Source: Hansfordia pulvinata | Taxonomy: Eukaryota > Ascomycota > Sordariomycetes > Xylariales | Assembly: GCA_006538405.1 (NCBI GenBank) | Contig: BJKQ01000013.1 | Location: 496,001-560,000, forward strand | DNA: 64,000 bases | Direction of reading: 5' to 3' | Shown: piece after piece, positions 26,830 to 63,518 of the stretch | Layout of the letters: every line of letters starts with the position of its first letter | How positions within the stretch are numbered: position 1 is the stretch's first letter | Made by a program: the position numbers and the translations under genes | Notes under the pieces: generated by a model | What the model was told of the DNA's origin: nothing | Databases searched by the model: none | Seen by the model: only the letters and a program-made list of their open reading frames with translations

Positions 26830-28382
26830 TCAGCCGGTCGAGAGGGTCCTGCCGAGCCACTGCGTCATGCTGGCGTACTGGTCGCCGGGCGCGACGCCGA
26901 TGCCAAAGTCGGTGATGGGCTCGACGTGGAACTCGTCCTCGACCAGGCTGAGCTGCACGCTCTTGCTGCCCATGTCCCTCTGCGCGCGCGCCAGCCAGCC
27001 AGTCCGTTGTTAGCCCCAGATCTCGACGGCAAGGTAATGATGATTCGTGGCAGCTTTCTCCCAGAAGAGCCAGTGGGAGAAAGGCACTCGAGTCTCGGTG
27101 GAAACCAAAGAAAAAAGGGGGGGAAGAGGGGGTAAAACTAACCTCCATAGCCTGGTACAGCTCCAGGATGGGGTCGCGGAGGACCTCGCGCGCGCCGGCG
27201 CCGACGAAGACGCTGTCGACGGGGACCTTGGCCCACCAGCCCTCCGGGGCGGTCGCGGGCTCGCTGTAGACGTCCGTGTCCGTGTCCGTGTCCTCCTCCC
27301 CCAGGAAGTTGTCCCTCCACTTCCCCAGGGCCTGCGCCGAGACGACGTCGAACCGCGTGTTCTCCCGGTAGCTGGCGTAGTCGGTCCCGAAGCCGGACCA
27401 GGGGGAGAGGAACAGCGCGCCGGAGAAGCGGCCGCCGTGCATGTCCAGCCGGTCGACCTCCGGGTGGCCGCGGGCGAGGTGCGACAGCAGGGCCATGGCG
27501 AGGTGCGCGCCGGCCGAGTCGCCCTGAAGCACAATGTCGGCGGGGTCGAAGCGCAGGTCCTCGAGGGCGTAGCGCAGCAGGGCGGCGGCCTGGGCCAGCG
27601 GCTTGGGCCAGAGGGACTTGGGCGCCAGGTCGTACTCGAGGAAGAGCACGCCGACGTCGTCGTCGTGGCCGCCGCCGCCCCGGGACCCCGAGGCCGAGGA
27701 GGAGGAGGAGATGTCGTCCAGCTGCTTCTGCACCAGGCTGAAGTGGCCCGGCAGCGCGGGCATGCAGTACCCGCCCCCCGGGAAGTACAGGATCAGCTTC
27801 TTGGGGTCCTTGCTGTTGCCGAGCCAGAACGCCCGCGCCCCCTCGTCCAGGTCCACCACCTCGGGTTTGCGCGGCGTCTGCGCGTGCGCCGCCGTCGTCG
27901 TCGTCGCTGCCTCGCGGAGGGCTTTGACGTGGGCTTCGTAGGCCTGCTCGGCGGCCGCGGCAGGCATCAGGAGTCTTTTGTGTTTTTCAGGGGTTAGCGG
28001 GCTCAGCAAGCATAGCTCACAGTCTGTTTTGGGAGGGCGGGAGGACAAGAAGAATAGCAAAGTGGTGGTCGCAAACGCAGATCTATAAAGAGGCGAGGCA
28101 GACACCTACTGGATTTCCCTGATAGAGGCGCGCTCGAAGAAGGTCCGGGACGCGGCGGCGGCGGCTTCCCTCCGGTGGGCTTTACCCATTATGTCCCATC
28201 GCAGCAGCGCCCTGGCTGAGGCGGCGGCCACCCCGTAGACTTTTCACGAGGGCAACCGACAATGTGGTGTCAGCAGGTGCGAGAAGCGCGTGAGAGGGTT
28301 TCTGGCTGTTCGTGCGCGAGGGGCTTTACGTACAGGACCTGCTTATCGTGGGGATAAGACCCAGGGCTGTCGACGCGTCCAT
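26830..28382 (-). CDS. Alpha/beta-hydrolase fold-3 esterase (HSL-like carboxylesterase)
   Basis: Serine esterase of the hormone-sensitive-lipase/abhydrolase_3 group. Exons are 28382-28334, 28239-28110, 27974-27143 and 26979-26830, giving 386 residues. All three junctions are in phase. The start at 28382 is the first Met of the frame that splices into SFYGVAAASARALLRWD. The oxyanion-hole block is FPGGGY (Gly126-128), where many relatives have HGGG. The nucleophile elbow is GDSAG (Ser at about residue 212). The catalytic Asp fits LRDPILE, and the His is in VEDEFHVEPI near the C terminus. No signal peptide, so probably intracellular. Fungal homologues act on esters in secondary metabolism or detoxification. 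No metabolic genes flank it directly, so its substrate is unknown. Confidence 0.85.
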
Positions 28383-32794: not shown

Positions 32795-34395
32795 ATGGCC
32801 GGCGAGGAGAACAAGGGCCCGGGCTTCACCGCCGCCTGCATCATCGTCACCGTCGCCGCCGTCATCGCCGTCGCCCTGCGCGCCTACTCCCAGCGCCTCA
32901 AGTCGCGCGCCTTCCTGCTCGACGAGGCCTTCCTCCTCGCCGCTCTCGTACGTGTAAATCCCCGAGAGGGACCGCCCGAGCCCATCCGCTCGCCAATGCG
33001 CCTTGTCTTGTCTCGGCCGTCTTGTCTGTCGGGTGACGGCTACAGATAAATATAAAGGCAGACAGCGACATTTGAAGCTAACTACTTGCCACCCCGCGCT
33101 CTTCTTCTTCTGCAGGTATTCACAATTGGTCTCTGCATAGAGACATGTCTGTGTAAGTCTATGCTTCTCGCCGCCGCCGCCGCCGCCACCGCTCGAGCCA
33201 AAGCTGACTGATCATGGGCCGTGCTTGCAGGTTTCCGATGGGGCGCCGGCCGCCATATGATGGACATTATGGCCACCGACCCTGAGCCGCTCGTGAACCA
33301 GCGCAAATACTGGATTGTACGTCGACCGCGCGCCCATCCATGTTTGCAACCTGCGAGGAAGATTAAAAAGAAAAGCGCGCGTTTCGCGCCTTCGTGTTTT
33401 CCCCGCCTCCCCATCATCCATGGCTGACCTCGAAAACCCCGCCCACAGTCCGGCTACGCCTCTGTCGTCAACTGGGCCATCTGCATGTTCCGTGAGTCCT
33501 GACTCTTGAATCGACACCGCCTTTGCCTGCCTGGATTTGCCCAGACTCGGCCGCGGCGTGTAAACGCTCGGAGAAGCTAACCTCGCCCCTCCTGCATCCC
33601 CACAGTCATCAAGTGCGCGCTGCTGGCCATGTACAAGCGCATCTTCATCCACCACTCGTCGAGCCGGCTGTACAAGTGGTCGACGTACCTGATCATCGGC
33701 TACGTGGTGGCGAGCTCCGTGTCCGTCATCTTCGCCTACATCTTCATCTGCGACCCCATCTCGCACTGGTGGGACCAGATCAACGCCCTGGGCGGCCTGC
33801 CCGTGCCCCCCGGCGACTGCCCCAACCTGATCGCCCGCGGGCTGTCGTGCGCCGTCCTCAACATCGTCAGCGACCTGGCCACGCTGTCGCTCGGCGTCAT
33901 GGGCCTGTGGAGCCTGCACATGGACCGCGCCCGCAAGTTCATGGTCGGCGGCATCCTCTCGCTGGGTTCCCTGTGCGTTCTCTCTCTCTCTCTCCGGAAA
34001 AAAAAAAACCCCATCCATCCCGAGAAAGAATAGACGTCGATCCTCGTCGTGCGTGTGTGGGGGGAAGAGGGATCCCAAAAAGAGAAAACGCGACACCGGC
34101 TAACAGCAACAGGTGCTGCATCGTCAGCATCTCCAGGATTCCGCTGCTGCTCTCGGCCACCTTTGACAACGACGCGACATGTACGTGCACAGCGAAAACA
34201 GAGTCCAGGCTTTCGTTCTGAAGCATTGCCCCCCCCCCCCCTCCATGAACAACCAACCCCGCTCCCCCCCGCTGACCGATATTCTCCAGGGTCCAACGCC
34301 AACTCGCTTCTAATCGGAGTTCTCGGTACGTCTGTCCTCTGTCCCTTTTGGGTTTCCGACCAACCTCCCACCGTCTCACTCCATCGGCAAAACCG

Positions 34396-37662: not shown

Positions 37663-39121
37663 TCACTTGACCTTGTGGTACCGCGGCGTGGACTCGCTCC
37701 ACCTCTCGTTGCCGCTCATCTGGCTCTCGAGCCCGCGCACGTACACGCGCAGCACCTGCCCCCCCTGATCCCCTTCCTCCTCCTCCTCCTCGACCAGCCG
37801 CCGGAGGAGATCCCCCTCCATCCGGCGGTGCTCCGCCTCCCACTCCCGGCACAGCGCCCAGAGGACCCGCCTGGCCCCGGAGGCCGGGACGCTGGCCTCG
37901 GCCGCCAGCACGGCCACCGACGAGCACAGCGCGGCCCCTTCCTCGTGCAGCGTCTCGCTGGCCCGGACCTCCTTGCGCCAGCTGTAGATGTCGTTGACCA
38001 CCGAGATGTGGCGGGCGCAGTTGCGCTCCAGGGGCTGAGCGAGCCGGAGCTGCGCCGGGGTGAGGTGCAGGGCCATGGAGAAGCGCATCAGTGCGGAGAG
38101 GAGGCTGTTTTTATCATTATCATGATAAGATGACAAGGTTAGCTCATGGCGTGTGTTTTTTGTGTGGAATAAAAGGAGAATACGATCGGGAAACAGAAAA
38201 AAAAAAAAAAAGGGAGAGGAGAAAGAGAGAAAAGAAAGAAAAACTCACGCCTGCCCGACGTCCTTCTCGCGGTACTCAAAGTACGCGCCCAGCTCCCTCA
38301 GCGTCAGGCGCGAGCCGTCCGTCTGCGCCCGCATGAAGGTGAAGACGGGCTCCTTGATCTCGCCCGCCAGCCGCGCGTCGCACGCCCTCATGTCCTCCCA
38401 CAGCTCGCGCGTCAGCACCTCCGCGGGCTTGTCCGGCTCGGGCTCCTCGTCCCCCTTGGAGATGGAGATCAGGCGCTCGTTGTACGCCGAGCCCTCCTCC
38501 AGGCCCATCTCTTCGAGGAGGTCTGGTTTTTCGGCCACGCGGAAAAGGTTTTTTTGTCAGCTGGTGATTTCCTTTTATTTTTTATTTTTTTTTGCTTGAT
38601 TTCATAATCGACTTTCGGGGCGGGGCAAGAGGATGGAAGAAGGAGAGGCCTAGGGCTAACTTACCGTCCACGAGAAACAGCAGCGTGAGAAGGCGGCACG
38701 CGAAGCCGATGCGCTCCGCCCGCGCGTGCGGGAAGTACAGGCAGGTGACGCGGGGGAAGTCGGCGGCGCGGAAGCGGCGGCGCTCGGCCTCGCCGCGGAA
38801 GGGCCAGCGCGCCAGGAACGCCTCGGCCACCTCGCGCGACACGCGGTCCGCCGCCGGGTGGATCTCGGGCGCGAAAGCCGACGGCGAGGGGCTCGCCGTG
38901 TCCGTCGTCGCCGCCAGGCTCGGGAACCGCCGCCGGTCCCGCGCCATGTCCTCCGACTCGGAGGGGTAGGCCGGCTGGGGCTGCTGCTGGGCCTTGGGCT
39001 GCGGGGCGGCGGAAGCGGCTGTGGTGGTGATCGTGGTCGTGGTCGTGGTGCTGTCGTTGCTGCTGCTTCCCGTCAGGCCGAGGAGCTTGTGAAGCTCAAA
39101 GGAGCGGAGGGTCGACAGCAT
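37663..39121 (-). CDS. Class I terpene synthase (sesquiterpene cyclase type)
   Basis: Mg-dependent cyclase that ionises a prenyl diphosphate and cyclises it in the cytosol; core enzyme of the proposed cluster. Exons are 39121-38665, 38522-38249 and 38104-37663, giving 390 residues with in-phase junctions. Motifs: Asp-rich DDLLE (Asp152, Asp153, Glu156), preceded by LLTLLFLV; NSE triad NDIYSWRKE (Asn281, Ser285, Glu289); and the C-terminal Arg-Tyr pair (Arg385-Tyr386, STPRYHK). These three in this order define fungal and bacterial sesquiterpene synthases. The first ~80 residues are low-complexity (Thr and Gln/Pro-rich), which makes it longer than a minimal ~330-residue cyclase. An acidic EEEEEEGD loop lies near residue 350. 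The first intron falls between the two Asp codons of the DDLLE motif. Farnesyl diphosphate as substrate and the product are inferred; geranyl or geranylgeranyl diphosphate cannot be excluded. Confidence 0.9.
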
Positions 39122-40545
39122 GGTGGCGGTGATGGGATAGTAGAAAGACAAGATAGAGAGATTTGTTGGTGGATGTAAAGAGGGCAGTCGTGCCGTTGGA
39201 AGCACAGAGACAAGTCGTCTGAAGGGAACAGCAGAGCAGAGTGTGAAAGTCGTCTGACAACACTGGGATGGGAGTTTCTGCGTTCTGGACTGCAACTTGG
39301 GCTTATCAAGTCCGAATCACTCCAGGTCCTTGAAGTCCTCGAGACGCCACGCCCGCTCATATGCTGCTCGGCAGCTCGCCTGGGCCGCCCTGCTGCAAGT
39401 GGAGACGGCTCGAGTTGACTCTTCTGCCTTGCCAGATTCCGTGATGCCCCGAAACTAACCGGGGCCAGGACGGCCAGCAGCGCGATAGCATCGTAAGCGC
39501 AGATAGTCACACATGCAGTGTCACCCCGGACTCTGGGGGCGGGGTTTGAAGCCCAGACAGTACAAGGCCTACCTAAACTACATGTACATACCTATACCCA
39601 GCAGTCGAAAGGTAACCATCCTGGCTGGGCGTGTGGGATACATACTTCCCTACCCCCCGGTTCTCGATCGTCTACGGCCACGGCGCGACAACGACGACAT
39701 CACGCAACGACCTCGCTGAAAGGGGAGCGCAAGGGCGCCGAAAGCGTCTCGCTTGCAGAGGCAGCAGCAGCAGCAGCAGCACCGGGGTGGCAGCGGTGCT
39801 GCCCCTTGCCCCCCCTGGCCCGGCCGGCGCCGATAGGGGAGAGAGTCCACGACCTGCCGTTTCGACGGACTGGCTGCCTAGTAGGTCAGACAGCCTTACG
39901 CCCGTGCGGCGTGGGTGAAGCGGCGGGTCGTCACCGGCGAGGGTCTGCAGATCGAGGCTTGTCGCTCTCTCTCTCCAAAGAGACCCGGGAAGGGGGCCTC
40001 GACGATGGAGCTGCCGCCGCTCGCGATGATGTCAATCAAGAGCACGCCAGAGCCCAATGGTTTCATCAGAGGGTAGCGCCGCGGTAGGCAATGGAATCCT
40101 TCCGTGGCCTTGAACCCTGCCCTGCAGGGCGTCTATCTCCAAGTCGTCAGCTCATCCCAGGCGGCCCTGGCTGGGTCCGGCCAGGTCCCGAGTGATAGCC
40201 GAAACGTCCTTGACTCGTACATCTCGCCAGGGACCAGGGGCTCGACCGATCAGAGGGATTCCCCCCCTCCGCCCCGCCGGGATGGCATATGGAGAGGAGG
40301 AGTAGTGGGGGGGCGTGCGCGTAGACGGGGCGCCCAGCCGAAACATTGCTCGTCGGCGCTGCTCGAGTGCCGTGGCAGGGGCTTCGACTCTTTCACGAAT
40401 AGACTCTTCCGGGATAGTCTGCCTGGGCCAGCCTGTCAGATAGATACTCGTACGCGCCGCCATTGATAAGGCAGCACTGACGCAACCTCCGGGGGGGGGG
40501 GGGGGCTGCGGTTCCAGGCCGGACGCCAAGCAGCCGATATTCAGC

Positions 40546-40578
<33 letters not shown>

Positions 40579-40950
40579 GAGGAAGGCAGATGCTGGAGCA
40601 CCGGCAATAGTTTCTTCCATCCATCAGTCTGACTGGCTAACAAACTATGTGTCCCACAACGGCTACTTCAGACGGACGACTATACTGTGGAGAGAACTTG
40701 ACCGCGCTCATCCCACTCGAACTTGCAAGGACCCTTGGAGGAGGGGCCGCCCCACTCTCAGACTGGCCATCGCGGTGCTATTCCGGCGTGCCTTCGCATT
40801 GCATTGCCTGCCTGCCTGCCTGCCTGCCTGCCTGCTGGGCCAAGGGTCTCGACTCATGACAGTCTTCTGCCGTGATTGCTTGCTGCCATCACCACCGCCA
40901 CTGCCACTGGCCACTACATCCCAGTTCTACTTGAGAAACGAACCGTAAGG
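39122..40950. other. Intergenic region
   Basis: Promoter side of the terpene synthase and tail of the SDR. Contains GCAGCAGCAGCAGC near 39763-39780, a G run (40490-40505), a GA tract (40548-40580) and a TGCC repeat (40805-40834). No gene. Confidence 0.5.
40805..40834. repeat. (TGCC)n tetranucleotide repeat
   Basis: About seven TGCC units. Confidence 0.85.
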
Positions 40951-42196
40951 TCAGACCGTCGGCGCGCGGAAGTCGGTGGCCTTCTGCTGCATCCTGGTCA
41001 GGCGGGCGTTGCGAGGCCCGAACCAGGCGGGCCTGAGGTCCGCCAACCCCTGCTCCAGCTCGGTGTACTGGTCTCCCAGCGTCAGGATCGCGCGCCCGTT
41101 CCACGGCCTGCTGTCGCCCTCGTGTTCGCCCTCGCCGTCCTCGTCCTCGTCCTCGTCCAGGAGCGTATCAGCATCCTTGCCGTACAGCTCGACCTGGCGA
41201 GACTCGCGCGCCGTGGCGGCGTGGGCCACGGCCAGGCCCACAAAGGCGGCGGTGCTGGTCGGCAGGCCCAGGGCCACGATGGGGGCCGCCAGGTTCGGCG
41301 GCAGCAGGCCCGTCAGCGTCGCCGCCGGCGCCACCGTGTTGATGGCGATGTCGTCCAGCGGCAGCGAGGAGCGCAGGGCCCGCACCAGGCCGACGAGCTG
41401 CGGGGGGAGGGGAAAAGTCTTGGGGTTAGCATGAAGCGTCAATCCAAAGAGAGAAAATAGATAAGAGATTTGAGTGTGTGTGTGTGTGTGTGTATGAGAG
41501 AGACAGAGAGAGAGAGGGAGAGAGAGAGAGAGAAACATACCCCCAGCTTCACAGCGCTGTACACGGGCAGCGAGTGCTCGGGCGAGTACGCGGTGGCGCT
41601 GGACGTGATGACGACGCGGCCCGCGGTGCGGTTGCGGCGCATGACGCTCAGCCCGACCTTGAGGGTGTTGAGGGTCCCGCGCAGGTTGACGTCGATGACG
41701 CCGTACGCCGGCTCCCGGAGGCGGCCCGTCGCCGGGTCCAGCTCGTCGGCGAAGTAGTCGGCCTCCTCGGACACGCCCGCATTGGCCACCAGCACGTCCA
41801 CCGTGCCGTTCCCCCCGGGCCCGTCGTTGCCCGGTCGAAGGCGTCCAGGATCGACGGCCAGCTGGTAATGTCGCAGGCCACGTAGCGCGTGTTGGCGGGC
41901 AGCTTCACCTCCTCCTTCCCAGCTTCGCCGTCGCCGTCGCCGTCCTGCGGCTTCTTCGGCGGCGTCACGTCGAAGAGGAACACGCTGGCGCCGCGAGACG
42001 CGAAGATGCGCCCGGCCTCCCAGCCGATGCCCGAGCTTCCGCCTGGTTGCGAACCCCCAGAAAGATTAGAAGGTCCGGGTCGACAAAGGGACGGAGATAG
42101 GCAGCGATGAAGGGGGGGGCTTTACGTACCGGTGATGACGACGGTCTTGCCGGTGCAGTCCGGAATGGCGGCCTGGGACAGCCGAAGGGTAGTCAT
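40951..42196 (-). CDS. Short-chain dehydrogenase/reductase (one apparent frameshift)
   Basis: NAD(P)-dependent classical SDR, likely oxidising or reducing an alcohol/ketone of the cluster product. Exons are 42196-42130, 42042-41541 and 41397-40951. The nucleotide-binding motif TGGSSGIG spans the first junction, DVLVANAG is the NAG block, and the catalytic Ser and YSAVK (Tyr/Lys) follow in [19 protein letters not shown]. The frame breaks at 41830-41832: one more C (G on the coding strand) joins ILDAFDR to [16 protein letters not shown], and the total then divides exactly into codons across all three exons (338 residues). As given, the frame would read into [11 protein letters not shown] and lose the active site. 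The C-terminal part has an acidic [11 protein letters not shown] insert. Head-to-head with the P450 at 43487. Size and the DAFDR/NAG spacing resemble 15-hydroxyprostaglandin-dehydrogenase-like SDRs. Confidence 0.85.
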
Positions 42197-43486
42197 CTCT
42201 GCAGAGGGGGACTGTGGGCTGACTGGCTGATACGAGGAAGGGCAGACAGTGTGATAGATGGAGTGAGTTGATTCGATGGTGGTAGAATCGAGAGGCTCCG
42301 AAGAACTGCGGCGTCTCTCTCTCTATCTCTCTTTTGCTTCTTCAATGTCGAGGGCGGATGGCGACCGGAGCACGACAATCTCACGTATAAGTCCGGAGCC
42401 CTTCAAGTCTTCTGCCTCGAGGTCGGGCCTCACGTATTCGTCTCGTACGCACACAGGGACCGACCTGCGCAGATCGGTCGGCTCGGTAGGTCTCCGTACG
42501 AGTGCGGAGTATAGAGCACAGCGCGATAGCGGGAGAGGGAGAGGCTTGGCGGCGGATGCAGCTCGAACACCCCTCCTCGCATCCCACTCACTACCTCCCC
42601 CATGTCACGCAACGAACGAGTACCTAATGGTATGTAGGTACAGGTAGGGGTGTGTGGATGTATGTATGCTGGACCCCTGCCGCCGCCCGCCCGCCCAGTC
42701 TCAGCCCCGGCCCCTGTCCCGGTCTCGATCCTCGGCCAGCCGGCGCCCGCCAAGCTGGCTGACAGGGCTGCTTCCAGGGCTGCTTCCAGGGGGGTTGAGT
42801 GACGATCGGCCCGTGGACGACTGACTGGCTGACTGACTGACTGACGGGCTGACTGACTGACGGACTGGGTGAGATTTTGGCTCGGGGCTGGGCCGATGTG
42901 TGCGGCTGCCTCATTCGGCAGCGCAACGCCCCCCGTCCCTCTTTCGATAGACAGACAGACAGACAGCCGGGGGTGTTTGTCCTCCTACTCGCGCTCCGAC
43001 TGTCAGCCGGCGCCGATCTTGGCTGGGGACCTTGCATCGGGGGGGGGGGGGGGGGGGTTCGGGTCCGCGGCGATAACGGGCGACACGCACGTAAGAAGTC
43101 GGTAGTTACGTACCATGTGATCAAGTCAGATAGATGAGGTAAGGTAGGGCAGGGTAGGGTAGGGTAGGTTAGGCTGGGTTGGTGTTGGTGTTGGTGTTGG
43201 TGTGGAGGGAGGGGGGTGGAGGGGAGGACAAGACTGGCGGCTTGGAGGGGTGAATAGAGGGAGGAGAGGGGAGGGGAGTGGGGGACCTCAGCCAGAGGAT
43301 CATCGAGGTCAGACAAGACGGGTATTCATTTCGGTCGAGCATCGTGAATGACCTCCGTCGCCCGTCTTCCGTCCGCATAGCATAGAGAGAAAAAAGAGAA
43401 AAAAAAAAACACCGGACGTGAGAGAGAACGACAGCAACAAAGCATCAACAAGACACACAAAACACCACCACCAACACCCACCAACC
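42197..43486. other. Divergent promoter region between SDR and P450
   Basis: 1.3 kb that could co-regulate two cluster genes. Contains repeated GACTGACT units (about 42823-42865), a duplicated GGCTGCTTCCAG (42768-42791), a G run (43040-43057), GGGTA and GGTGTT repeats (43147-43202) and an A-rich 5' leader ending CCAACC before the P450 ATG. Confidence 0.55.
43147..43164 (+). promoter_or_regulatory. G-quadruplex-forming motif, telomere-like GGGTA repeat
   Basis: Four GGG tracts separated by two-base loops (CA, TA, TA), the classical G4 pattern, about 320 bases before the P450 start and in the shared SDR/P450 promoter. The repeat resembles the TTAGGG telomere unit but lacks one T. Function is not shown. 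Confidence 0.45.
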
Positions 43487-45882
43487 ATGGCCCTGATCAC
43501 GCTGGCGCTGCTCTGCGTGGCGGCGTGGGTGCTGCGGCGCCTCGGGCTCGCCGTCTACCGCCTCACCCTCCACCCGCTGGCCGGCTTCCAGGGGCCCCGC
43601 GCGGCGGCGCTGACCGGCGCCTACGAGTTCTACTTTGACGCCCTCCGCGGCGGCCAGTACACCTTTGAGATTGGCCGCATGCACCGCCGCTACGGCCCCG
43701 TCGTCCGCATCAGCCCCGACGAGCTGCACGTCAACGACCCGGCCTTCATCGACGAGCTGTACGCCGGGCCCGGCAAGCCCCGCGACAAGTACGCCATTGC
43801 CACCGGACAGTTTGGGTGGGTTGTTTTCCATACTATTCCCCTTCTCTCTCTCCCGTGTTGGCTGTGTTGCTGGACAAGACTCAAGAGTCAAGAGTCAACT
43901 TCAGTTCCGAACTTCAGTTCTAGTTACACAGAGCTGGCTGTGAATCGCAACTCAGAAACCATCCATCTAACTAACTGACCGTGTCTTGTCTCCAGAAACC
44001 CAGATGTGAGTAGCTGCCTTACCCCTCCCCCACTGACCGGCCGACTTGCTATAGTCGCACTCCCCTGTTTAGGTATCGCCATCTAACCTACACTCTCACG
44101 CAGAGCGTCTTCGGGGCCGTCGCGCACGACGTCCACCGCATGCGCCGGTCCGCGCTCAACCCCTTCTTCTCCAAGGCGGCCGTCGCCCGCCTCGAGCCCG
44201 CCATCCACGGCGTCGTCGCCAAGCTGTGCCGCCGCCTGGCCGACGAGGGCGCCGCCGGCCGCCCCGTCGACCTCGTCATGGCCTTCTCGTGCCTGACCAC
44301 CGACGTCGTCACCGACTTCGCCTTCTCCCGGTCCTCCAACTTCCTCGACTCGCCCACCTTCGCCCCAACTTCCACGAGGCCATCCTCGGCGGCACCCGCA
44401 TGGGCGTCTGGGCCCGCCACTACCCCGTCATCTACCCCATCCTGCGCTCCATTCCGGTGTATGTTTTTTTTTTTTTTTTTTTCCTTCTTATTCTTCTTCT
44501 TTGCTCTCCGATCCCTTTCTGCACGACTTCTTCTTTCCCAGGCTAACCGAGGACTCTTTCCACGACCACAGAGACTTTCTGTCGTGGCTGTCCCCTGAGA
44601 CCGGGGTTTTCCTCAAGTGGCAGGAGGTATGTCATTCCCGGCTGGAGCCGAGGTAAACGAAACGTTGTTTAACACAAAAGAAAAACATCACAGAGCATGA
44701 AGAAGAGAGTGTACGAGATCCACCGCGAGCAGCAAGCCGGAGCGGCCGCTGAAAAGCCGGCACAGCCCCAGGACACGGGCAGCACCATCTTCCACTCGCT
44801 CTTCGCCGCCGACATACCCGAGTCGGAGAAGCAGCCGGAGCGCATGTGGCAGGAGGGCCAGATCATCATAGGCGCGGGCACGGAGACGACCGCATTCAGT
44901 CAGTTTTTTTTTTCTTTTTTCTTTCATGTTTTTGTTTTTGTCTCTTTGATTTGCCGGGTGTGCTAACACGGGGTCTATAGGTCTCGCTGCCACCGTCTTC
45001 CACATCCTCGACAACCCGCCCATCCTGCAGAGGCTGCGCGACGAGCTCAAGGAGGCCATCCCCGGCGACGACGAGCAGCCGTCCGGGCGACTGCTGGAGG
45101 GGCTGCCGTATCTGATAAGTCCTCACCCCGCCACCCCGGCACAGTGATATCCAAAAGGCCCAGGCCGCGAAGCGAGACTCTCAGGCACCTGCACCTGCAC
45201 CTTGCTCCCTCCCAGGCACGCCCCCCCTTCCCGCCGAGAACAACAGCGCTAACATGTCCCCCCTCCCGTCCCTCTCTGCACAGCGCCGTCATCACCGAGG
45301 GCCTCCGGCTGTCCTACGGCGTGGCCACGCGGCTGCAGCGGGTCAACCCCCAGGGCACGATGGTGGTCCCCGGGGGCGGCGGCCCGGAGGCGGGGCCGCC
45401 CGTGGTGATCCCGGCCGGCACGCCCGTGGGCATGACCTCGTTCCTCGTCCACCTCAACCCGGAGCTGTTCCCGGAGCCCCTGCGGTTCCGGCCCGAGCGG
45501 TGGCTGACGGCGGACGGCAGCCGGCGCGACAGGCGGCTCGAGAGGTACCTGCTCACGTTCTCCAAGGGCAGCCGCCAGTGCATCGGCATCAAGTCAGTTC
45601 TTCGCGCCCTCCCTTTCCCCCTGACCCTTACCCATACCCCTACCCTTCGACTGCCTGAAAAGCAAAACTACACAAGAGGAGAAGCTGATTCGAAACTAAC
45701 ACTCGACCAGCCTGGCGTACTCGGAGCTCTACGCTGGGATCGGCCTCCTCATGCGCCGGCTGGGCGGCCGGCTCGAGTTGCACCAGACGGACCGGTCCGA
45801 CGTCGACATGGTCGAGGACTGCTTCGTCCCGGTCCCGAAGCGGGACTCCAAGGGCATCCGCGTCCTGTGCCGCGACCAGTGA
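43487..45882 (+). CDS. Cytochrome P450, cluster member A (one apparent frameshift)
   Basis: ER-bound heme monooxygenase, probably oxidising the terpene. Exons: 43487-43815, 43996-44005, 44104-44458, 44542-44626, 44694-44898, 44981-45107, 45284-45592 and 45711-45882. Motifs: N-terminal anchor (MALITLALLCVAAWVL), hinge LHPLAGFQGP, I-helix AGTETT, ExxR in EGLR, FRPERW, and heme-binding FSKGSRQCIG. Exon 2 is only 10 nt (Asn-Pro-Asp) but is required for frame. The frame breaks at 44363-44366: one more C would give the continuous helix NFHEAILGGTRMGVWARHY, and exon 3 then splices in phase. The donor of intron 6 is doubtful. GTATCT at 45108 is in frame but drops the usual 'YL' before AVITEGLRL, while TATCTGATAAGT just after lacks a usable GT. 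Corrected length is about 530 residues. Divergent from the SDR. Confidence 0.87.
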
Positions 45883-47143
45883 GAACGCGCAGACGCTATT
45901 GTTGGTTTCGTCGTCATCGTCCTCGTAAGCTGAGAAAGGCCGCGGTGCTTTGAAGGGCGCCATTGGTCGGCTTTCGAGACCGGGTCAACTGCACTGCGCC
46001 CGCATCTGGAGGTGGGTATAGGACTTCTGATAGTGCGACCTCTCCCGCGCAGGGGTTGCAATCTCTTCTTTCTGCTTTCGTCACACACACACACACAAGG
46101 TCGTTGCTACAGCGGCAACACTTGAATTTGTCCAATGAGCTTTGTCGAGTCTTCCTACTTCTCCTCGCGTGTAATACTACTACGTTTCCACCACCCGCAA
46201 AGCCGGCAGCTCTGCAGACCTCGAGCAGCCGACAGAGATAACGCGGAAGCAAGCTGCATATGCGTCGTGATGACCTACTTGGAGATGCCTGCCTGCCTAC
46301 CTAATACATGAAGTCCACATCAAGTCAGTAAGCAAGTCCAGGCAGGGCTCCTCGCCGGTCTCCAAATCAGACCAGGGGCTCGGCAGCGCACGTCAAGGGC
46401 CTCGGCCCCCCTCGTCTCCCTGTCTGCCGCATGCCTACCGACATCACAGACGGGTAAGTAAGGTAGGTAGATAGGCATAGGCACGGGCCCCGTCTACGCG
46501 TGCGAGCCGGTCGCTTTCAGGCACTCTTGACTACGTACCCCACGAAGGAATGCAGGCCTGTGATCGGCCCTCTTCTCCACGGCAACCCTGCATGGGCAAG
46601 CTAGAGCTGAAGGCGCCGGGTCCCGGCTAGACTATCGTGTAACCAGGCACCTACCTACCTACTCTTCTCGTACGTACGGGGTATGCCCGCGAAACGAAAC
46701 CCCCTCCAAAGAGGCTACCATCGTTCGGGAGTGGTCACGTCACGTAACGCAATGCAACAAGGGGTGCTGGCAACACACCCCTTCCCCCATCCCTCCCCAC
46801 TGAGGGCCCCTGGGACGACCCCTGGTTCGGGCAGTGGGCCCCGACGCTGGCAGCATCGAGTCCCTTGGCGAAGCGATCCGCGATGGCCCCGCGCCCTACG
46901 TCCGGCTTCTGGGTGTAAGCCGACAGCGCCTGGCGGCGTGGGGGAGTATCTCGGCACACCCGACTGGAATATATTCCCTCTCGCCGAGATTGAGGGGGGC
47001 GTCGACTCACCACCGCAACGCACAGCCTGGTTGTGAGTAGCAAGAGCAGAAGGCCGTAACATCATCATCATTATCGTCATCATCGTCAACCTACCCACTC
47101 GCAAGAGAAAATCTGAAACCCCCCCCTCTCCTTTCTGCGAGCG
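45883..47143. other. Intergenic region
   Basis: Between two co-directional P450 genes. Contains a CA run (46083-46097) and TAGGTAGGTAGA-like motifs (46455-46475), and a CATCATCATCATTATCGTCATC stretch near 47061-47088 just before the next start. No gene. Confidence 0.5.
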
Positions 47144-48568
47144 ATGGCCGGCACAATCGCGGACAGCCTTTGGGGCTTTGCCGAAGCTGCCTCCCGCTCG
47201 TTGCCAGAGGGGCGCGTCTTGCTAGCCTCTATTGGCTGCGCAGTACGGAAACCCTCCCCCCTTCCCTTGACGTCGAGGCGCTGGCTGCGTGTTTTCTGAG
47301 ATACGTGCTGACGAGATGCTGGGTGGCGCAGTTTGCCGTGTCGTGGCTCGGCCAGGTCGTCTACAACCTCTACTTCCACCCGCTGGCGTCTTTCCCCGGC
47401 CCTTTCTGGGGCAGGGCAAGCTTCGTAGGTCGAACATGGCGCTCTCCTCCCCGGGGGCATATCATATTCATATGTGCTGTAATAGAGGACTGACGGGTCG
47501 GGCAGTTCTGGAGAGCATGGCACACGTCCCGCGGCCGTTTCCACCGTTCTGTCGACGCGCAGCACAAGCGCTACGGTTGGTCGCACCTCTCCTCCCTCCC
47601 CTCTTCCTCCTCCTCCTCCTCCTCCTTCTTGCCCCCATCTCTATCATGAGACGCTCAAGCTGACTGACACTCGTCCCACCACCACCGCCGCCACGCGCAG
47701 GCGACATTGTGCGCCTCTCGCCCAACGAGCTGTCCTTCGCCTCGGCCGACTCGTGGCGGGCCATCTACAGCCCGCGGCACGGGTCGGCGCCCCTGGTCAA
47801 GAGCGAGTTCTACGAGATCTACGGGTCCGGCTTCGACTCGCTGTGCGTCGGCAGCGAGCGCGACCCCCGCGTCGCGGGCCGCATGCGCAAGTCGCTGTCC
47901 CCGGCCTTCTCGACCCGCGCGCTGCTCGAGCAGGAGGGCATCGTCGACGGCTGCGTCGACCGCTTCGTGGGCGCCCTGCGCGCCCACCCGGACGCCACCT
48001 CCGCCTCCTCGGGCAACGGGCTGAACATGACCAAGTGGTTCGAGATGCTGGCGTTCGACATCCTCGGGGAGATGGCCTTTGGCGAGTCCTTTCACTGCAT
48101 TGAGGATGGTTGGTTTTTTTTCCTTCCCTTCTTTCTTCCCTTCCTTCCTTTCGTTGACGCTCACCCCCACTCACTCGCTCTCATCCCCCTCTCCCTCTTT
48201 CCGACCCTAACAACGGCAGAAAGTATCCTCCCGACCCCCCCGCTTACGATACAACTAAAAACAGGCAAGCCCCACTTCTGGTCCGAGATGATCGAGGAGC
48301 ACCTGTACTTCATCACGGTGCTGGACACGCTGCGGCGGTACCCGCTGGTGGCGGCGGCCGGCAAGGCGCTGCTGCCGCACCTGACGGTGGGCGTGCGCAA
48401 CCGGCACACGGGCTACAGCCGGGCCAAGGTGGCGCGCCGGCTCGAGAAGGGAGACGGAGACGCGAGCAGCAGCCCGCGCGCCGACTTCATGTCGCGCCTG
48501 ATCGCCAAGGTCCGCGACGGCGAGATGAGCCTCGAGGAGCTGACGGCGCACGCCTCCACATTGGTGTA

Positions 48569-48608
<40 letters not shown>

Positions 48609-49548
48609 TTCCTGTCATTCAGCCGTAGCGAAAGATAAACACAGTTCAGTCCTCCCTCCCCCCCCCCTTTTCTATGAAACGAACAAAGAGAAAAAAGCTC
48701 ACGGAGAAAACGAACATGTAGCATCGCCGGCGGCGAGACGGTAGCCACGTTCCTGGCGGCCGTGACGTACCACCTGCTCTCGACGCCGCGGGCGTACCGC
48801 AAGCTGCGCGACGAGGTCCGCGGGCGGTACCCGGGCGGCGCGCGCGAGGTGGACGCGACCAGCGCCCAGGCGCTGCCATACCTGCAGGCCGTCATCGCCG
48901 AGGGCCTGCGCATCTACCCGCCGGGCTCGCAGGGGTTCCCGCGCAAGACGCCCGCGGGCGAGGGCATCGAGGTGGACGGGCGGTGGGTGCCTGGAGGTGT
49001 AAGTATTTCTCTTTTCTTCTTTTCTTTCTTCCTTCCGTTCTTCCTTTCATTCTCAAGGAGAGAGGATCGTGAGAGGGGGAAGAGCTGACTCGAAAACAGG
49101 TCGAGGTGTACACGTCGGCGTGGTCCGTCACGCACGACCCGCGCTACTTCCACGACCCGCACGTCTTCAAGCCGGAGCGCTGGCTGGACCCGGACTGCCA
49201 GGACCTCAAGGAGGCCAGCCAGCCCTTCTCGCTCGGACCCCGGGGTTGCATCGGGAGAAAGTAAGTCTTGGCTGTCTTCCCCTCCCCCCATTTTTTCTTT
49301 CAAACCCCAGAGCTGCAGGCTGACGAGTATCCATCTTCCCGCCGCCTACCAAAAGCTTCGCCATGGTCGAGACCTCGCTGATCCTGGCCAAGATGCACCT
49401 GGCCTTCGACGCGGAGCTGGTCAGGCCCGGCCAGGGCTGGGAGGAGGAGAGCCGGATCCACGTCATGTGGTGGAAGCCGGAGCTGGCGGTGCGGTTCCGG
49501 CCGGTGGACGGGCATGGCTCGGCCGATGGGCAGGGCGCGAAGAACTGA
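47144..49548 (+). CDS. Cytochrome P450, cluster member B
   Basis: Intact eight-exon P450 of 533 residues. Exons: 47144-47242, 47332-47424, 47506-47575, 47701-48108, 48265-48565, 48722-48998, 49100-49260 and 49356-49548, all in phase. N terminus MAGTIADSLWGFAEAASRS, then YNLYFHPLASFPGPFWGRAS, FWRAWHTSRGRFHR and GDIVRLSPNELSF, a layout typical of the isotrichodermin-15-hydroxylase-like fungal CYPs. The I-helix is IAGGETVATF (AGGET in place of AGTDT). ExxR is EGLR, then FKPERW, and the heme loop is FSLGPRGCIGR (Cys near residue 466). The start at 47144 has a purine at -3 and the first in-frame stop is spliced out, supporting exon 1. Intron 5 has a long (TC)n run (48574-48603). Together with the neighbouring P450s it would supply successive oxidations of a terpene skeleton; regiochemistry cannot be predicted. 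Confidence 0.9.
48574..48603. repeat. (TC)n tract in a P450 intron
   Basis: About 15 TC units in intron 5 of the second P450, directly after its donor. Confidence 0.85.
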
Positions 49549-50167
49549 TCTTGCATGTGGCCGAGGTAGACAGAATGTTATGCAGACGTTCACCAGACAG
49601 GTCTTGAGGTGTGAATCCAATCGTCCAATTCGTCCAATTCGTCCCGTTCCCACATGCCCGACGTGGTTTCGCCGTCCGTCGTGATTGGCCGCTGCTAAGA
49701 AACCCTGAACCCGGCGATCGACTTTGGTTGAGAGGGACGCCGGAAAAGTGGATGCTGTGCCCCGGATTCGATTGATTCCGACGCGCCCGGCTTTACGTGT
49801 AGCTTAGGTACCTGCTTCGATTGATTCAATATACCTGTGACGTATCCATGGCTTATCTACATGTACGCAATACATGTATGCAAATACGGTCCGGCAGTGC
49901 ATCCTAGGCACGTTTGGGCGAGGGCGAGGGCAAGTCGTCGACACTATCTCCATTTGTACTGCATCGCACCCATCGTCCTCCTCCAGAGCCATCACATCAC
50001 AGCCAACATAGAGAACCGTCCAACACACCGCTCAACACATGCTCCATCCCCTTGAAGTCGCGCATACGAGAGAAAGAAAGAAAAGAAGAAAAGAAGCGGA
50101 AAACCAGATGAAATAGGGAAACATTTGAAGAAGAAGAGAAAAAGAGATGAAAAGAAAAAGAACACCC
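49549..50167. other. Convergent intergenic spacer
   Basis: 620 bases between the tails of two P450 genes. Contains three tandem copies of TCCAATTCG-like sequence near 49622-49643 and an AG-rich stretch (50060-50165). No gene. Confidence 0.55.
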
Positions 50168-52137
50168 TCAACCCCGAGCCTTGAACATGACCCTCCCCTC
50201 GGGGCTGGGCAGGTGCTGCGTGTCGAACGTGACGCTGGCCGGCCTCCGACCCCCGCCCCCTCGGGGAGCCTCATCTCGTACCGCCGCGCGACCTCCCCGA
50301 TGATGCCCTTGATCTCCATCGTCGCGAAGAACCGCCCCGGGCACGCGTGCTGCCCGTACCCGAACATCATGGAGCCCGGGTGCGCCGAAGCGAACTGCGC
50401 CTGCGGGCTGACGCTCTTGCTGCTGCTACTGCTTCCTCCTCTGCCGCCGCTCTTCTTGTCATTATCGTTGACGTTGCCGTCGCCGTCGCTTTCACTTCCC
50501 GCCGCCGGCGCCACGAAGCGGAAGGCCCGGAACTCGTCCGGCTCCGGGTACAGCGCCGGGTCCATCGTGATGGCCTGCGCGGGCACGCCGACCCACGTGT
50601 TGGCCGGGATCACCACGCCGTCGTGCAGGGGGAAGTCCCGCCGCATGATCCGCTCAAAGGTGACTGTTGGTCGGAGAGAAGGGGAGGTCAGCGATGAAAA
50701 AGATTGGTCGATGATATGAGAGTGAAAGTGTGTGTGTGTGTGTGTGTGACGGAGAGAGAGAAAGAGACAGAAAGAGAGAGAGAGGCTGACTTACTCAGCA
50801 GCAGAGGGTTGAAGCGCTGGCTCTCCTTCATGATGCTGTCCATCTTGACCATCTGCGCGAACCCCTTGGTCGTCACGTTGCCGTCGGCCCCGCGCGCCGC
50901 CGCCTCGTACTCGGCGACCAGCGGGGCCGCGTGCTCCGGCGCCGCCGCCAGGTCGAACAGCAGCTGCGTCGGCGCCGCCGCGCTCGTGTGGTACGCCGCG
51001 AAGCTGACCTTGAGCACCGTGCCCGCGATGAACTCCATGTCCTTCTCCGGGCCCTTGGCCTGCGTGTACATCCACGTGAGCAGGTTGTTCGGCCGGCTCT
51101 CGGGGTCCTCCTGCGCCGCCGCCGCCTCCAGCAGCGGCACGATGGTGTCCCGGGCCACCCGGTACGACCGCCGGATGGCCCGGATCTCCGGGACCAGGTG
51201 CACGGCCAGCGGCTTGAGCGCCGCCGGCCACCGCTTGAGCTTCTGCGCCGCCGCGAACCCGTTGTGCGCGAACTCGAGCGACTTGGCGATCCACTCCCGG
51301 TTCCGGCTGAGCGCCGTGCCCCCGAACATCCGGCTCGACACCCGTGCGATGATGATGGCCATGGTCTCGGACAGGTTGATCTCGGTCCAGTCTGGGGCAA
51401 AAAAAAGTCAGCCAAGTGTCCCCCGTCATACACGCGGGGGGGCGTACCTTTGCACGGCGGGAACAGCTCATCTAGGCTTTCCCGTATCTCGGCCTGGATC
51501 TCGGGGATGACGTGAGCTGCGACAGGTACGTTAGTCAATGCGATGCGAGCCTCGGTGAACGCAGGCCTGGTCGTTTCCCTCACCCATGTGTTGGTTCAGC
51601 TGTGCCCGGACGACCTCGGGGAGCAGCCGCGAGTGCGTGCCCAGCGTGGTGTACGCGCCCTCAAACATCTATCGAGCCCCTATGTCAGCGGCTGGTGATT
51701 GGGGACGACGACTCGTCTCCCCCCCAAGGTGGTGGACCATACCTCGAGAAATGTGCCTTGGAAGTCGACAACCTTCATGTCGGCCGACTTGATCTCGTCG
51801 AGGTACTTGGAAGGCAGCATGAGACGCTCGCCGATGGGCGTGGGGACGTAGAACAGACTTCCATTGTACTGGGCCAAGGCAGTGGTCAGCATCGGGGCGG
51901 GTTTTTTGGGCGGGGCAGGGGGCTCACCTCCTCGTAGGCGTTCCTCAGGATGGACAAGCTGTCTGTGGTGAAGCGCTGGCGGTTCTGCTGGATGTTCTCC
52001 CTGCCTCCGGCGATGGGGACGTTGTCTATGTAGCGCTGCTTGGTTCGATAGTGTTGCAGCAGGCGCCATGATAGAAAGGCCAGCAGCACCGGCACGAGCT
52101 TCCAGCGCAACGCTTCGAGGTCGACAGTGAGAGACAT
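50168..52137 (-). CDS. Cytochrome P450, cluster member C (CYP68/ent-kaurene-oxidase-like; one apparent frameshift)
   Basis: ER-anchored P450 unlike the other two. Exons are 52137-51928, 51868-51743, 51668-51584, 51516-51448, 51391-50795 and 50663-50168. N-terminal anchor LVPVLLAFLSWRLL, then YNGSLFYVPTPIGERLMLP. The I-helix FAAYHTSAAAPTQ replaces the usual AGxDT, ExxR is KESQR, and the heme loop is FGYGQHACPGRFFA; this combination resembles fungal ent-kaurene-oxidase-like CYPs. The final ~30 codons are out of frame: the C5 run at 50256-50260 (or the nearby one at 50250-50254) needs one more C for the tail LPSPEGRVMFKARG and a stop at 50168. With it, all exons sum to whole codons (about 527 residues). 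As given, an unrelated tail runs on to about 50032. A Ser/Gly/Asp-rich insert lies before the heme loop. Head-to-head with the MFS transporter. Confidence 0.87.
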
Positions 52138-53976
52138 GGCGATTTGCCCAGATCAAGTGGAGTTGCTTTATCTCTTGAAGGGTTCAAGGCCACGACAGTT
52201 TCATACAGCGCAGTCTCGATAGCTCGGAGCCCGCCTTGAAAGCGGCTTGAGGCGGCCCCCATTATATGTAACGTCGATACACACTGACCAGGACCGCATG
52301 CCTAGATATCTGCCTATCTAGAGATAGTCGTTCAAGCTCAGGCCCAGTTGCGCGTTGCGGAGAGTGGACGGACAGAGCTGACCCCCCTCCCTCTTGGACC
52401 CCCCATTCTTCCCCTGTCACCCCTCATCGCCATTGGAGGCGCATCATGGCAAGTAGTGACGAGCATCGCTGCGCTACCGGGGAGATCTGTGACGAGCCCC
52501 CCAGCCGGTCAGCATCCGAGCGAGGTGCACGACAGAGGTCCCTGTCCGGCCTGCGCTTACACGTTACCAGTGCATGTAGCGACGGTCAGATATGGCCAAC
52601 GACCGGAGGGCTTGGCGGACAAGGTTACGGACAGGTGGTACCTGGAACGGATAGCCTGGTCACTCCCCCCCTTGGCGCCGTGGCGGGACTGCGAGTACTC
52701 GAGGTGGAGAGGGCCCGCCGGTTGACGATGCGAGGGCAGCTCTAGCCATCATCTGCAAAGTACGAGCACTCAGCTGCAACGTCGGTTGTTGCGGAAGGCG
52801 GCACATGCCTGTTCAGTCTGACTGCACCGTCTCATCAGGCAGAAGAGCTCCCGGGTCCCGGGGCTGCAGGGGCTGGGATCCAATAGGGGGGTTCGTATTC
52901 CTTCTTGTCATGTACCATGCTGATTTCATCTCCCTCTCAGGTGCATATGTACCGTACGGATATCTGTATACCAACTGCAGAGTGCGGATAGGAGGTACAT
53001 GTATGTATCAGCTCGACCACATGCAGACTCCAGTCGTACGACTTTGGTGCGTCAGTCGTAGTCACCTACGACTGGAGTATGCGCCGACCTTACCAAGGCA
53101 CTACGCGTACTGTACTCCGAATACATAGCAGGGAATGGGATCAGAACCTCGGCCTGTGATCTGCCAGACCCTGGATCTCTATCCGCATCACCCACACCCT
53201 CCCGTCTAACTACACCCCCTTCTCGCTCACTTGTGCTCTCCGTTATTGGCACCCCCAGCCTCAGACATCCCGGCGACGGGACGTCAGGTGCCAAGGCGCT
53301 AATCAGCACACGTTGGCTGCGTTCCCGCTTGGCAGAGACTGCCGAGACGGCAGCTTTCCATCTGCGAGGTCTCTCCGTTCTCAGACTGGCAGATGGGCGC
53401 ACAAGGTGGCATGGCCTGGTCGCGCGCAGGGGACGTGATTGGGGGCAAACGAATGAGTTCAAGATGAATCATAGTCGGGACAAGTCCGCGCCAGGGGAGC
53501 CGAAACACCAGCGAGGTACACGTCTCCTTCCGCTTAACAGTCGGCCTGAGCGTGTATTCAATCCCGAGTGCGGTACGGCTTCATCAATCGTTCCTGCCTT
53601 CCCTTCCCTACATTACCGCAGTAATTACCACCAGCCCCCATCAGCATCGGCAATCCATCGCTACCAGATTTGCGTACCTGCCCGCGCACCTCTACTTGAA
53701 TGCGGGCAGGGAAGGTACGGCGGATGGACGTGCGACCTGGCAGGCACCGTTTGTACTTGTGTTGGTGAAGCCCCCCTGCCCGGCAGGTATTCAATCTTTT
53801 TCCCGTCTCAGAAACGTGGGCGTCTTCTCCCTGTCGCCCGGGCAGCTGCTCAAAGCGACTACAAACCAACATAAAGGCCCAGCCCGGCCGTCTCTCGGAT
53901 GCTTCCCTTTGATCCTCAACACCAACCAGCACCCTCGCAGCCGGAGGACGCCCACCGACGACGCACGCCAGCCGAC
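52138..53976. other. Divergent promoter region, P450-C and MFS transporter
   Basis: 1.8 kb with no supported gene. It should carry promoters for both flanking cluster genes. The notable element is the inverted repeat at 53027-53078. Long open frames (53233-53874 and 53552-54202) lack coherent protein character. Confidence 0.55.
53027..53078. promoter_or_regulatory. Perfect 12-bp inverted repeat with internal CAGTCGTA copies
   Basis: Arms ACTCCAGTCGTA (53027-53038) and TACGACTGGAGT (53067-53078) are exact reverse complements around a 28-base centre, which itself holds GTCAGTCGTAG. The left arm overlaps the palindrome GTCGTACGAC (53033-53042). The core CAGTCGTA thus occurs three times in 52 bases. 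It may bind a dimeric regulator or form a hairpin. Function is not shown. Confidence 0.5.
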
Positions 53977-55871
53977 ATGGCCACCGAAAAGCACCCTGCC
54001 TCGCTGCCAGGCAGCCAGGACGCGCCGCCCAAGACCGAAGCGCCACCGCAGGGCGTCGAGCGCGACAGCGACGCGTATGGATCCGACGGCGAGCATGGAG
54101 GTGGCAGTTCGATCACGGAAAACACGGATGCGGATCAGAAAGGCGGCGGTCTCGTTCTCGTCATCACTGTCGCTGCCCTCGCCATGGGCATGTTTTTGGT
54201 AGGCGCTGCCGCTACGCCGTGAACACGGTCGGAGAAAGGACAGTTGGCTAACAGCGCATGACAAACTACAGGTCTCACTGGATATGGTTCGTCTCCTTCA
54301 TCTACGGGCACTTGTTCGCATGCTTCAACCGCAGCCCGAACCCGAACTAACACCCAGGTACCCAGACCATCGTGGCAACGGCCATCCCTAGAATCACCGA
54401 TGAGTTTGGCCAGATCGAGCTCGTCGGCTGGTACGGCGCCGCCTTCTTCACCACTCTGGGTGGCTTCCAGGCCGCCTGGGGCAAGGCCTACAAGTACTTC
54501 CCCCTCAAGATCACCTTCCTGCTGTCCATCTTCCTCTTCGGAGTGGGCAGCTTGATTTGCGGCGTCGCCCCGAACAGCCTCACTCTCATCGTGGGCCGCG
54601 CCATCACCGGTGTCGGCGGTGCCGGCGTCTCTTGTGGCTGCTTCACCATCATCGCCCTCTCGGCTCCGCCCAAGCAACAACCCGCCTACATCGGCATCCT
54701 AGGCGCGTCGTACGGCATCGCCGCAGCTATCGGGCCTTTACTGGGCGGCGCTTTCACGGATAAGGTGACTTGGCGATGGTGCTTCTACATCAACTTGCCC
54801 ATCGGGGCGGTCACGGTTGCCGTCATTGCCTTCTTCTACAAGCCGCCGCCTCCTCTTCCGTCCCTCAACGAGCCGTTACGCGAAAAGCTGCTGCAGCTCG
54901 ATATCCCTGGCACCTTGCTTCTCACCGCCGCCCTTGTGTGCTTCGTGCTGAGTCTTCAGTGGGCAGGCGTCTCGCGCCCGTGGTCGGACTCCACCGTCAT
55001 CGGCACCCTCGTGGGATTTGGCGTCTTGCTGATCGCCTATGCGGTCGTGCAGTGGCTTCAAGGCCCCCGCGCCGCCATGGTTGGCCACCTTCTCCAGCGG
55101 AATGTCGTCATCGCCATGGTGTACATCCACCTAATTGCCGGGTCGTTCTTCCTGCTGGTGTACTACCTGCCCATTTATTTCCAAGTCGTCAACGGGGTCT
55201 CGGCAGCTCAGAGTGGGATCCGAAATCTGCCCTTGATCTTGGGCCAGAGCGTGTTCGCCACCATCTCTGGCGTGTTGCTCAGCAAGTTTGAGCGTCCCCA
55301 GCCTTTTCTGATCGCCGGGGCGACGCTGGTGACCATCTCATCAGGCCTGCTCTACACATTGGACGTGGACACGGAGCCTGGAAAGTGGATCGGCTACCAA
55401 CTGCTGGCTGGAGTCGGCGTTGGTTGGTGCTTTCAGGTGCCCGTTGTCACGGCACAATCCACGGTCCAGCCAGAGCATGTGTCGTCTGTGACAGCCATGG
55501 TGCTCAGTAAGATTTCCGGTCCAGTCCACCTCGGTCCCGCTTTGGTCGCTAACTCGGTCGCAGCTGTGCAAACCATTGGAGGCTCGATTTTTGTCTCTGC
55601 CGGCCAGTCTGCCCTTGTCAATATCCTGTTCAAGTCACTGCCTGCCGGTTTCTCCGATTCGGATGCTGCCGCCGTGGCAAACACGGCTGGGGAAAAGCTC
55701 AGAGAAACCGTCTCGCCGGAGCACTTTCCAGCCGTCCTGCGGGCTTACATGGACGGCATCAGAGGAGCTCTCTTGATTGCCGTGGTCGCCTCCGGTCTAG
55801 CATTTGTTGCCAGCCTGCTGCTTCGCTCGACCAAACTCAGAACAGGGAACTCCGCCGCAGCTGCCGTGTAG
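53977..55871 (+). CDS. MFS multidrug/toxin-type exporter, DHA2 family (14 TM)
   Basis: Proton-driven efflux pump at the plasma membrane, the likely exporter of the cluster product. Exons are 53977-54198, 54272-54286 and 54366-55871, giving 580 residues. The second exon is only 15 nt (VSLDM). It rebuilds the conserved TM1 motif LDMTIVATAIPRITDEF across both introns, which strongly supports the model. The hydrophilic N-terminal ~60 residues are acidic and Ser-rich. Motif A-like GKAYKYFPLK follows TM2, and the antiporter motif C region reads GASYGIAAAIGPLLGGAFTD. YINLPIGAVTVAVI is typical of DHA2 members. At least 12 further hydrophobic segments run to the C terminus (FVASLLLRS). An in-frame ATG exists at 53899; 53977 is preferred because the longer leader is low in family character. 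Divergent from P450-C. Confidence 0.9.
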
Positions 55872-63004: not shown

Positions 63005-63518
63005 ATGCTCCTCTGTAGGTTCCATTTCCAGATACCGCAAACGCGCTTCAGCGCCACAAAGCCTTTTCGTGTTTCTTACTTCCGAAATCTCAACCTGACC
63101 CCTTCCCCCCTTGCCCAGTCTGCCCGCAGTGCAGCAACATCCTGACGGTGTCGCCGTCGCCCGAGAGCGGCCGCAACCGGCTCGAGTGCCGCACGTGCCC
63201 TTACCAGTGCGCCATCGACGCGCCCCTCTACTCGCGCCGCGTCTTCCGCCGCAAGGAGCGCGAGGACGTGTTCGGCGGGCCCGGCGCCTGGGACAACGCC
63301 GACAAGACAAAGGTCCAGTGCCCCGCCACGGGCTGCAACGGCGGCGAGGCCGCCTTCTACCAGATCCAGATCCGCAGCGCCGACGAGCCCATGACCAGCT
63401 TCTTCAAGGTGGGTTTTGCTGCGGCCCCCCCCCCTGCCCCTCCGCGCTGTCTTGCGCTGCTTGCTGACGAGTGCCCACCTAGTGCATGACATGCGGCCAC
63501 CGCTGGAGGGAGAACTGA
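63005..63518 (+). CDS. RPC11: DNA-directed RNA polymerase III subunit RPC11 (TFIIS-like)
   Basis: Small Pol III subunit (C11) that stimulates transcript cleavage, termination and reinitiation in the nucleus. Exons 63005-63014, 63119-63408 and 63483-63518 give 111 residues, the expected family length. The first exon is 10 nt (MLL plus one base). The N-terminal RPB9-like zinc ribbon has CPQC and CRTC. The C-terminal TFIIS-like ribbon has CPATGC and CMTCGHRW. The catalytic acidic hairpin is intact in QIRSADEPMTSFF (Asp-Glu). The last intron (63409-63482) separates SFFK from CMTC, and the stop follows WREN. Metazoan symbol is POLR3K. This gene is a good anchor for species placement because it is single-copy and conserved. 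Confidence 0.95.

Follow-up and report, generated by a model that had tools for sequence, protein, structure and literature searches.

A six-gene sesquiterpenoid locus of Hansfordia pulvinata that matches the published deoxyphomenone cluster

A 64,000-nucleotide stretch of contig BJKQ01000013.1 (assembly GCA_006538405.1) from Hansfordia pulvinata (the window, to which all gene positions refer) encodes, between positions 37663 and 55871, a sesquiterpene cyclase, a short-chain dehydrogenase/reductase (SDR), three cytochromes P450 (P450-A, P450-B, and P450-C), and a major facilitator superfamily (MFS) transporter. This segment is almost certainly the deoxyphomenone (sporogen AO-1) cluster, DPH, described in 2025 from H. 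pulvinata 414-3 (PMC11980549, cited throughout from part of its text), which comprises a cyclase (HpDPH1, DIP_001954), an SDR (HpDPH2), three P450s (HpDPH3-5), and an MFS transporter (HpDPH6); the locus is real but already known, and not new. H. pulvinata is a mycoparasitic mould, and deoxyphomenone blocks the germination of other fungi (PMC11980549); the compound is the reported main antifungal of a mould tested for biological control of tomato leaf mould, and it alters sporulation in Aspergillus.

Gene models and a Pfam scan of 26 distinct stretches of the window place the six genes in the order proposed in an initial annotation of this DNA, with exactly its outer limits, from the stop codon of the cyclase (37663) to that of the transporter (55871) (Table 1). 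All modelled introns have GT..AG borders save one in P450-A. Two further genes to the left of the cyclase, passed over in that annotation, encode an alpha/beta hydrolase and a membrane protein with a fungal rhodopsin domain; they fit the published neighbours of the cyclase, of which DIP_001952 encodes a lipase/thioesterase and DIP_001953 an integral membrane protein (PMC11980549). The gene set, both neighbours, and the presence of two Ari1 homologues in the genome are the same here and in the 414-3 description; no difference was found, and the available part of that description does not mention the frame breaks discussed below. Deletion of HpDPH1 in 414-3 eliminated deoxyphomenone, the identity of which was established by liquid chromatography-tandem mass spectrometry, and the culture filtrate of the mutant no longer inhibited C. 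fulvum germination (PMC11980549). This deletion supports the earlier reading of the segment as a terpenoid cluster that includes multiple oxidases and an exporter. The hint that the gene combination might be new is not supported: the set, its neighbours, and the host are already in print (PMC11980549), as is a cluster from Aspergillus oryzae (PMC10686045).

The assembly searched has 63 contigs and 46,805,188 bases, with a guanine-plus-cytosine (GC) content of 57.44% in a sample of 158,259 bases; for strain 414-3 of Dicyma (Hansfordia) pulvinata, the reported draft comprises 71 scaffolds with 46,845,581 bases, an N50 of 2,948,257, and a GC content of 57.6% (PMC6715866). The two are almost certainly one assembly, and a filtered copy would most simply account for the 8 fewer scaffolds and the 40 kb less sequence. 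A search of the assembly for 5.8S ribosomal RNA gave no match. P450-A, P450-B, and P450-C were matched to DPH3, DPH4, and DPH5 by gene order alone. At E ≤ 1e-80, P450-B has 470 relatives and P450-C 139, which fits the wider published distribution of DPH4 than of DPH5 (PMC11980549). P450-C is ent-kaurene-oxidase-like, going by the names of its matches. The main exon of the transporter matches MFS_1 (E 3.3e-43) and TRI12 (E 1.2e-14), and a hydropathy scan of the protein (19-residue window) gave 23 hydrophobic stretches, merged by eye to 11, some of them long enough for two, compared with the 14 transmembrane segments proposed initially.

Both divergent pairs noted earlier are real, with start codons 1.3 kb apart for the SDR and P450-A and 1.8 kb apart for P450-C and the transporter. 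Co-expression, put forward as a check, is borne out in part by the published upregulation of HpDPH genes during mycoparasitism, which was significant for DPH1-3 (PMC11980549). No transcription factor was found in the 26 Pfam-scanned stretches, a scan that was not aimed at such factors.

Table 1. Genes of the cluster and its two left-hand neighbours (window positions)
Feature	Position	Strand	Details
Sesquiterpene cyclase, HpDPH1	37663..39121	-	Exons 39121-38665, 38522-38249, 38104-37663; 390 aa; GT..AG; PF19086
SDR, HpDPH2	40951..42196	-	PF00106 in both separately kept pieces; frame break at about 41804-41822
P450-A, HpDPH3 by position	43487..45882	+	Three pieces kept apart; PF00067 in the two pieces scanned; frame break at about 44358-44367; donor after 45116 not GT in the assembly
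P450-B, HpDPH4 by position	47144..49548	+	8 exons; 533 aa; open frame; PF00067, E 6.6e-61
P450-C, HpDPH5 by position	50168..52137	-	PF00067, E 2.8e-32; frame break at about 50239-50257, near the C-terminus
MFS transporter, HpDPH6	53977..55871	+	Exons 53977-54198, 54272-54286, 54366-55506, 55564-55871; 561 aa
Alpha/beta hydrolase, fits DIP_001952	26851..27973 (ends approximate)	-	Abhydrolase_3, PF07859, E 2.1e-16 for 27143-27973
Fungal rhodopsin-domain membrane protein, fits DIP_001953	32792..34803 (ends approximate)	+	Fung_rhodopsin, PF20684, E 7.1e-20 for 33605-33964

The cyclase can be named more precisely than before, because it matches solved aristolochene synthases: PDB structure 2e4o aligns with residues 73-388 (E 3.8e-103). 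Its motifs are intact, as had been claimed, with DDLLE at residue 152, NDIYSWRKE at 281, and RY within STPRYH at 382, and the metal-binding motifs are shared with the synthases of PDB entries 2e4o, 4kux, and 1dgp; unlike these, the 390-residue model carries a long low-complexity N-terminal extension. By sequence it is an aristolochene-type sesquiterpene cyclase, predicted to produce aristolochene. An alternative start at M59 is possible and would give a protein of 332 residues that is 49.7% identical to the A. parasiticus homologue; the published identity to the A. oryzae cyclase is 49.1%, and A. oryzae DPH1 restored the cyclase-deletion mutant of H. pulvinata in part (PMC11980549).

A search of the genome with the cyclase (E ≤ 0.001) returned five exon matches in two loci (C13 and C5), and two Ari1 homologues have been found in 414-3 (PMC11980549). 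The second aristolochene-synthase-like gene (C5:250489-251543) is 37-42% identical to the first, and its best-scoring matches, among those listed, are cyclases of Cytospora, Decorospora, and Xylariales; a P450 match (C5:246043-247272) lies about 3 kb from it.

In the proposed pathway, the cyclase would convert farnesyl diphosphate to aristolochene, P450-B may hydroxylate C-8, and the SDR may then oxidize this position to the 8-ketone; P450-A and P450-C would supply the remaining hydroxyl and the epoxide, and the MFS protein would export the product. A P450 and an SDR are common to four aristolochene clusters and have been proposed as the makers of the 8-ketone (PMC10686045). P450-B is assigned to C-8 because it is the one of the three P450s with relatives in Penicillium roqueforti and across Xylariales; this assignment, each tailoring step, and export are all inferred.

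Such relatives would also suit a different product, an aristolochene derivative of the PR-toxin or hypoxylan type: P450-B has a relative in P. roqueforti (60% identity) and relatives in many Xylariales, where relatives of the cyclase are found as well. We regard this as extremely improbable. The gene set equals DPH, and the cyclase deletion in 414-3 abolished deoxyphomenone itself (PMC11980549). The prx cluster of P. roqueforti (PMC10144355) shares an aristolochene synthase, an SDR, and P450s with DPH but also contains acetyltransferase and quinone oxidase genes along with others, none of which was seen at 37663-55871; the 60% identity of the P. roqueforti relative to P450-B does not imply that it belongs to prx. 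Neither an acetyltransferase nor a quinone oxidase was found in the 26 Pfam-scanned stretches, no search having been aimed at either, and a FAD-binding/berberine-type oxidase (3.8-6.0 kb) lies about 31 kb away.

Several observations weigh against equating this locus with the published cluster, or against parts of the account given here. The full 390-residue cyclase model is 44.4% identical to the A. parasiticus protein, not 49.1%. As far as the available text shows, the published deletions concern the cyclase alone, later steps being deduced there as well, and HpDph2 is given a hydroxylation, which differs from the C-8 role proposed above for the SDR (PMC11980549). Close relatives of P450-C in A. 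melleus conflict with the published restriction of DPH5 to Aspergillus section Flavi. Because of frame breaks in three of the six genes, their proteins cannot be obtained in full from the assembly.

These frame changes, which interrupt the SDR, P450-A, and P450-C in the assembled DNA, were missed earlier, and they could be real, the cluster being in decay in the sequenced isolate with half of its genes broken. We consider decay very unlikely, and assembly error the likely cause of all three breaks, because 414-3 makes deoxyphomenone, at about 80-100 µM (PMC11980549). All three sites fall in or close to brief runs of G or C, and the 414-3 assembly is a merger of PacBio RS II and Illumina assemblies (PMC6715866). 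As a control, the assembly was searched for the HSP70 family, with 14 matches; one gene (on C4) shifts frame near 2021730-2021751, within a strongly conserved stretch that has no room for an intron. The same kind of break in an HSP70 gene is a sign of base-level errors in the assembly, although the control is one gene inspected closely and not an error rate.

Relatives in other fungi were taken from the best 120 matches listed for each of the cyclase (of 223 at E ≤ 0.001), P450-B (of 470), and P450-C (of 139), and contigs of equal size served as a proxy for location on the same contig. Among the matches listed, the best for P450-B is A. flavus AFLA_007466 (70% identity), and that for P450-C is also from A. 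flavus (64%); the published similarity of DPH2-6 to their section Flavi counterparts is about 70% (PMC11980549), and the comparison made here covers P450-B and P450-C of these five. The A. oryzae sporogen AO-1 cluster, aoTc-aoL4, reported in 2023 (PMC10686045), and the Flavi DPH clusters (PMC11980549) have a cyclase, an SDR, and P450s as in Hansfordia; in A. oryzae, DPH4 and DPH5 are switched (PMC11980549), and the likely Flavi cyclase falls on a branch other than that of Hansfordia.

Relatives of the cyclase, P450-B, and P450-C together were found on 13 contigs among the matches listed, and pairs only on 16 (cyclase and P450-B), 14 (cyclase and P450-C), and 16 (both P450s); many of these contigs will be other aristolochene clusters. 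The closest of the 13 are from A. melleus, with DPH1-, DPH4-, and DPH5-like genes together, and from Sclerophora amabilis (a contig of 37,753 bases); A. steynii has DPH1- and DPH4-like genes. We take both A. melleus and A. steynii to be members of section Circumdati. The Sclerophora contig comes from a lichen metagenome bin and could hold the DNA of another fungus. According to the published description, complete DPH clusters occur only in section Flavi, Circumdati has DPH1-3, and no DPH cluster was found in Penicillium (PMC11980549). The closest relative of the cyclase by score, among the matches listed, is nevertheless from Penicillium daleae (64% identity); the best 120 matches for P450-B and for P450-C include none from P. 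daleae. No paper titled on a DPH cluster in Sclerophora or A. melleus was found in the open-access literature, the supplement of PMC11980549 with its many genomes lying outside this scope, and the name Sclerophora amabilis was not found in the open-access literature searched.

Phylogenies were built with FastTree (the Hansfordia protein and the 120 listed matches for each gene) and with IQ-TREE (27-29 hand-picked taxa), and supports were read as splits. All three genes place Hansfordia in a clade with Aspergillus, joined by P. daleae for the cyclase (ultrafast bootstrap [UFBoot] 100 each; FastTree 0.992-1.0), with Sclerophora as the next branch out (UFBoot 85, 94, and 100 and FastTree 0.906, 0.928, and 1.0 for the cyclase, P450-B, and P450-C). 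Within this clade, Hansfordia is sister to the Aspergillus proteins for P450-B (UFBoot 87, FastTree 0.816) and weakly sister to P. daleae and Circumdati for the cyclase (UFBoot 72, FastTree 0.103); for P450-C it joins Flavi, with A. melleus outside, without support (UFBoot 55, FastTree 0.128). The cyclases of A. parasiticus and A. arachidicola, judged by identity to be likely the section Flavi ones, group with those of A. campestris and A. falconensis (93), outside the Hansfordia clade. Relative to Hansfordia, this likely Flavi cyclase and the Flavi P450s sit on different branches, as would be seen after a replacement of the cyclase.

Vertical descent, modelled as a grouping of Hansfordia with seven Xylariales copies, was rejected by the approximately unbiased (AU) test for the cyclase (p 0.002), P450-B (p 1.4e-5), and P450-C (p 1.2e-16), the constraint being a demanding one in that the seven copies may be of several kinds. 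Grouping of the cyclase with Flavi was also rejected (p 1.7e-5). Four groupings were left unrejected by the AU test: P450-B with either Flavi (p 0.31) or Circumdati (p 0.08), and the cyclase (p 0.48) and P450-C (p 0.20) each with Circumdati. When P450-C was joined to Sclerophora alone, the AU test gave rejection (p 0.0009) but the Shimodaira-Hasegawa test did not (p 0.053). These comparisons of sequences support horizontal transfer and do not support a direction. The Hansfordia proteins lie beside, not clearly inside, those of Aspergillus, so the published direction of transfer is not settled by these genes.

It is possible, if on balance unlikely, that Aspergillus was not the source of the cluster, and that a third, unsampled lineage gave it to both fungi or that it is old and has been lost from most lineages. 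The position of Sclerophora just outside Hansfordia and Aspergillus in all three trees is consistent with such a history, as are the sister placements for P450-B and, weakly, for the cyclase; the best P450-C tree joins Hansfordia with Flavi, the Aspergillus groupings listed above stand unrejected, and the Sclerophora metagenome contig could belong to another fungus. A fuller version, in which the DPH cluster has a greater age and mobility than the published account gives it, with an unsampled donor lineage in place of Aspergillus, an exchanged cyclase in Flavi, and a core in a lichen-associated fungus outside both known groups (S. amabilis or a companion), is put forward as a doubtful proposal. 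Three additions to the published account can be tested, namely the core genes on a Sclerophora contig, the co-located DPH1-, DPH4-, and DPH5-like genes of A. melleus, and the history of the likely Flavi cyclase, which differs from that of the Flavi P450s. Taken as a set, they justify a fresh test of the direction of transfer that has been claimed.

Outside the cluster, a TFIIS-type zinc ribbon is encoded at 63133-63411 (+); we take it to be RNA polymerase III subunit C11-like, and a housekeeping gene here would mark a right flank outside the cluster. Repeat-induced point mutation and repeats, as possible marks of a transposed block, gave no such sign: the TA/AT ratio in the window is 0.51-1.03 when taken in 4-kb steps, and no repeat of at least 60 bases, direct or inverted, was found in it. 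On the left, the FAD-binding/berberine-type oxidase (3759-6027, -), a GDSL lipase (2647-3345, +), and a P450-like N-terminal stretch judged by eye (1-591, -; 325-591 had no Pfam match) are possibly the edge of another cluster. Between these genes and DPH lies an NLR-type gene (9924-15881, +), in which a phosphorylase (PNP_UDP_1) domain is followed by a NACHT domain and a long ankyrin array over several frames; it is situated in a block of lower GC content (0.48-0.56 for each kilobase between 11 and 20 kb).

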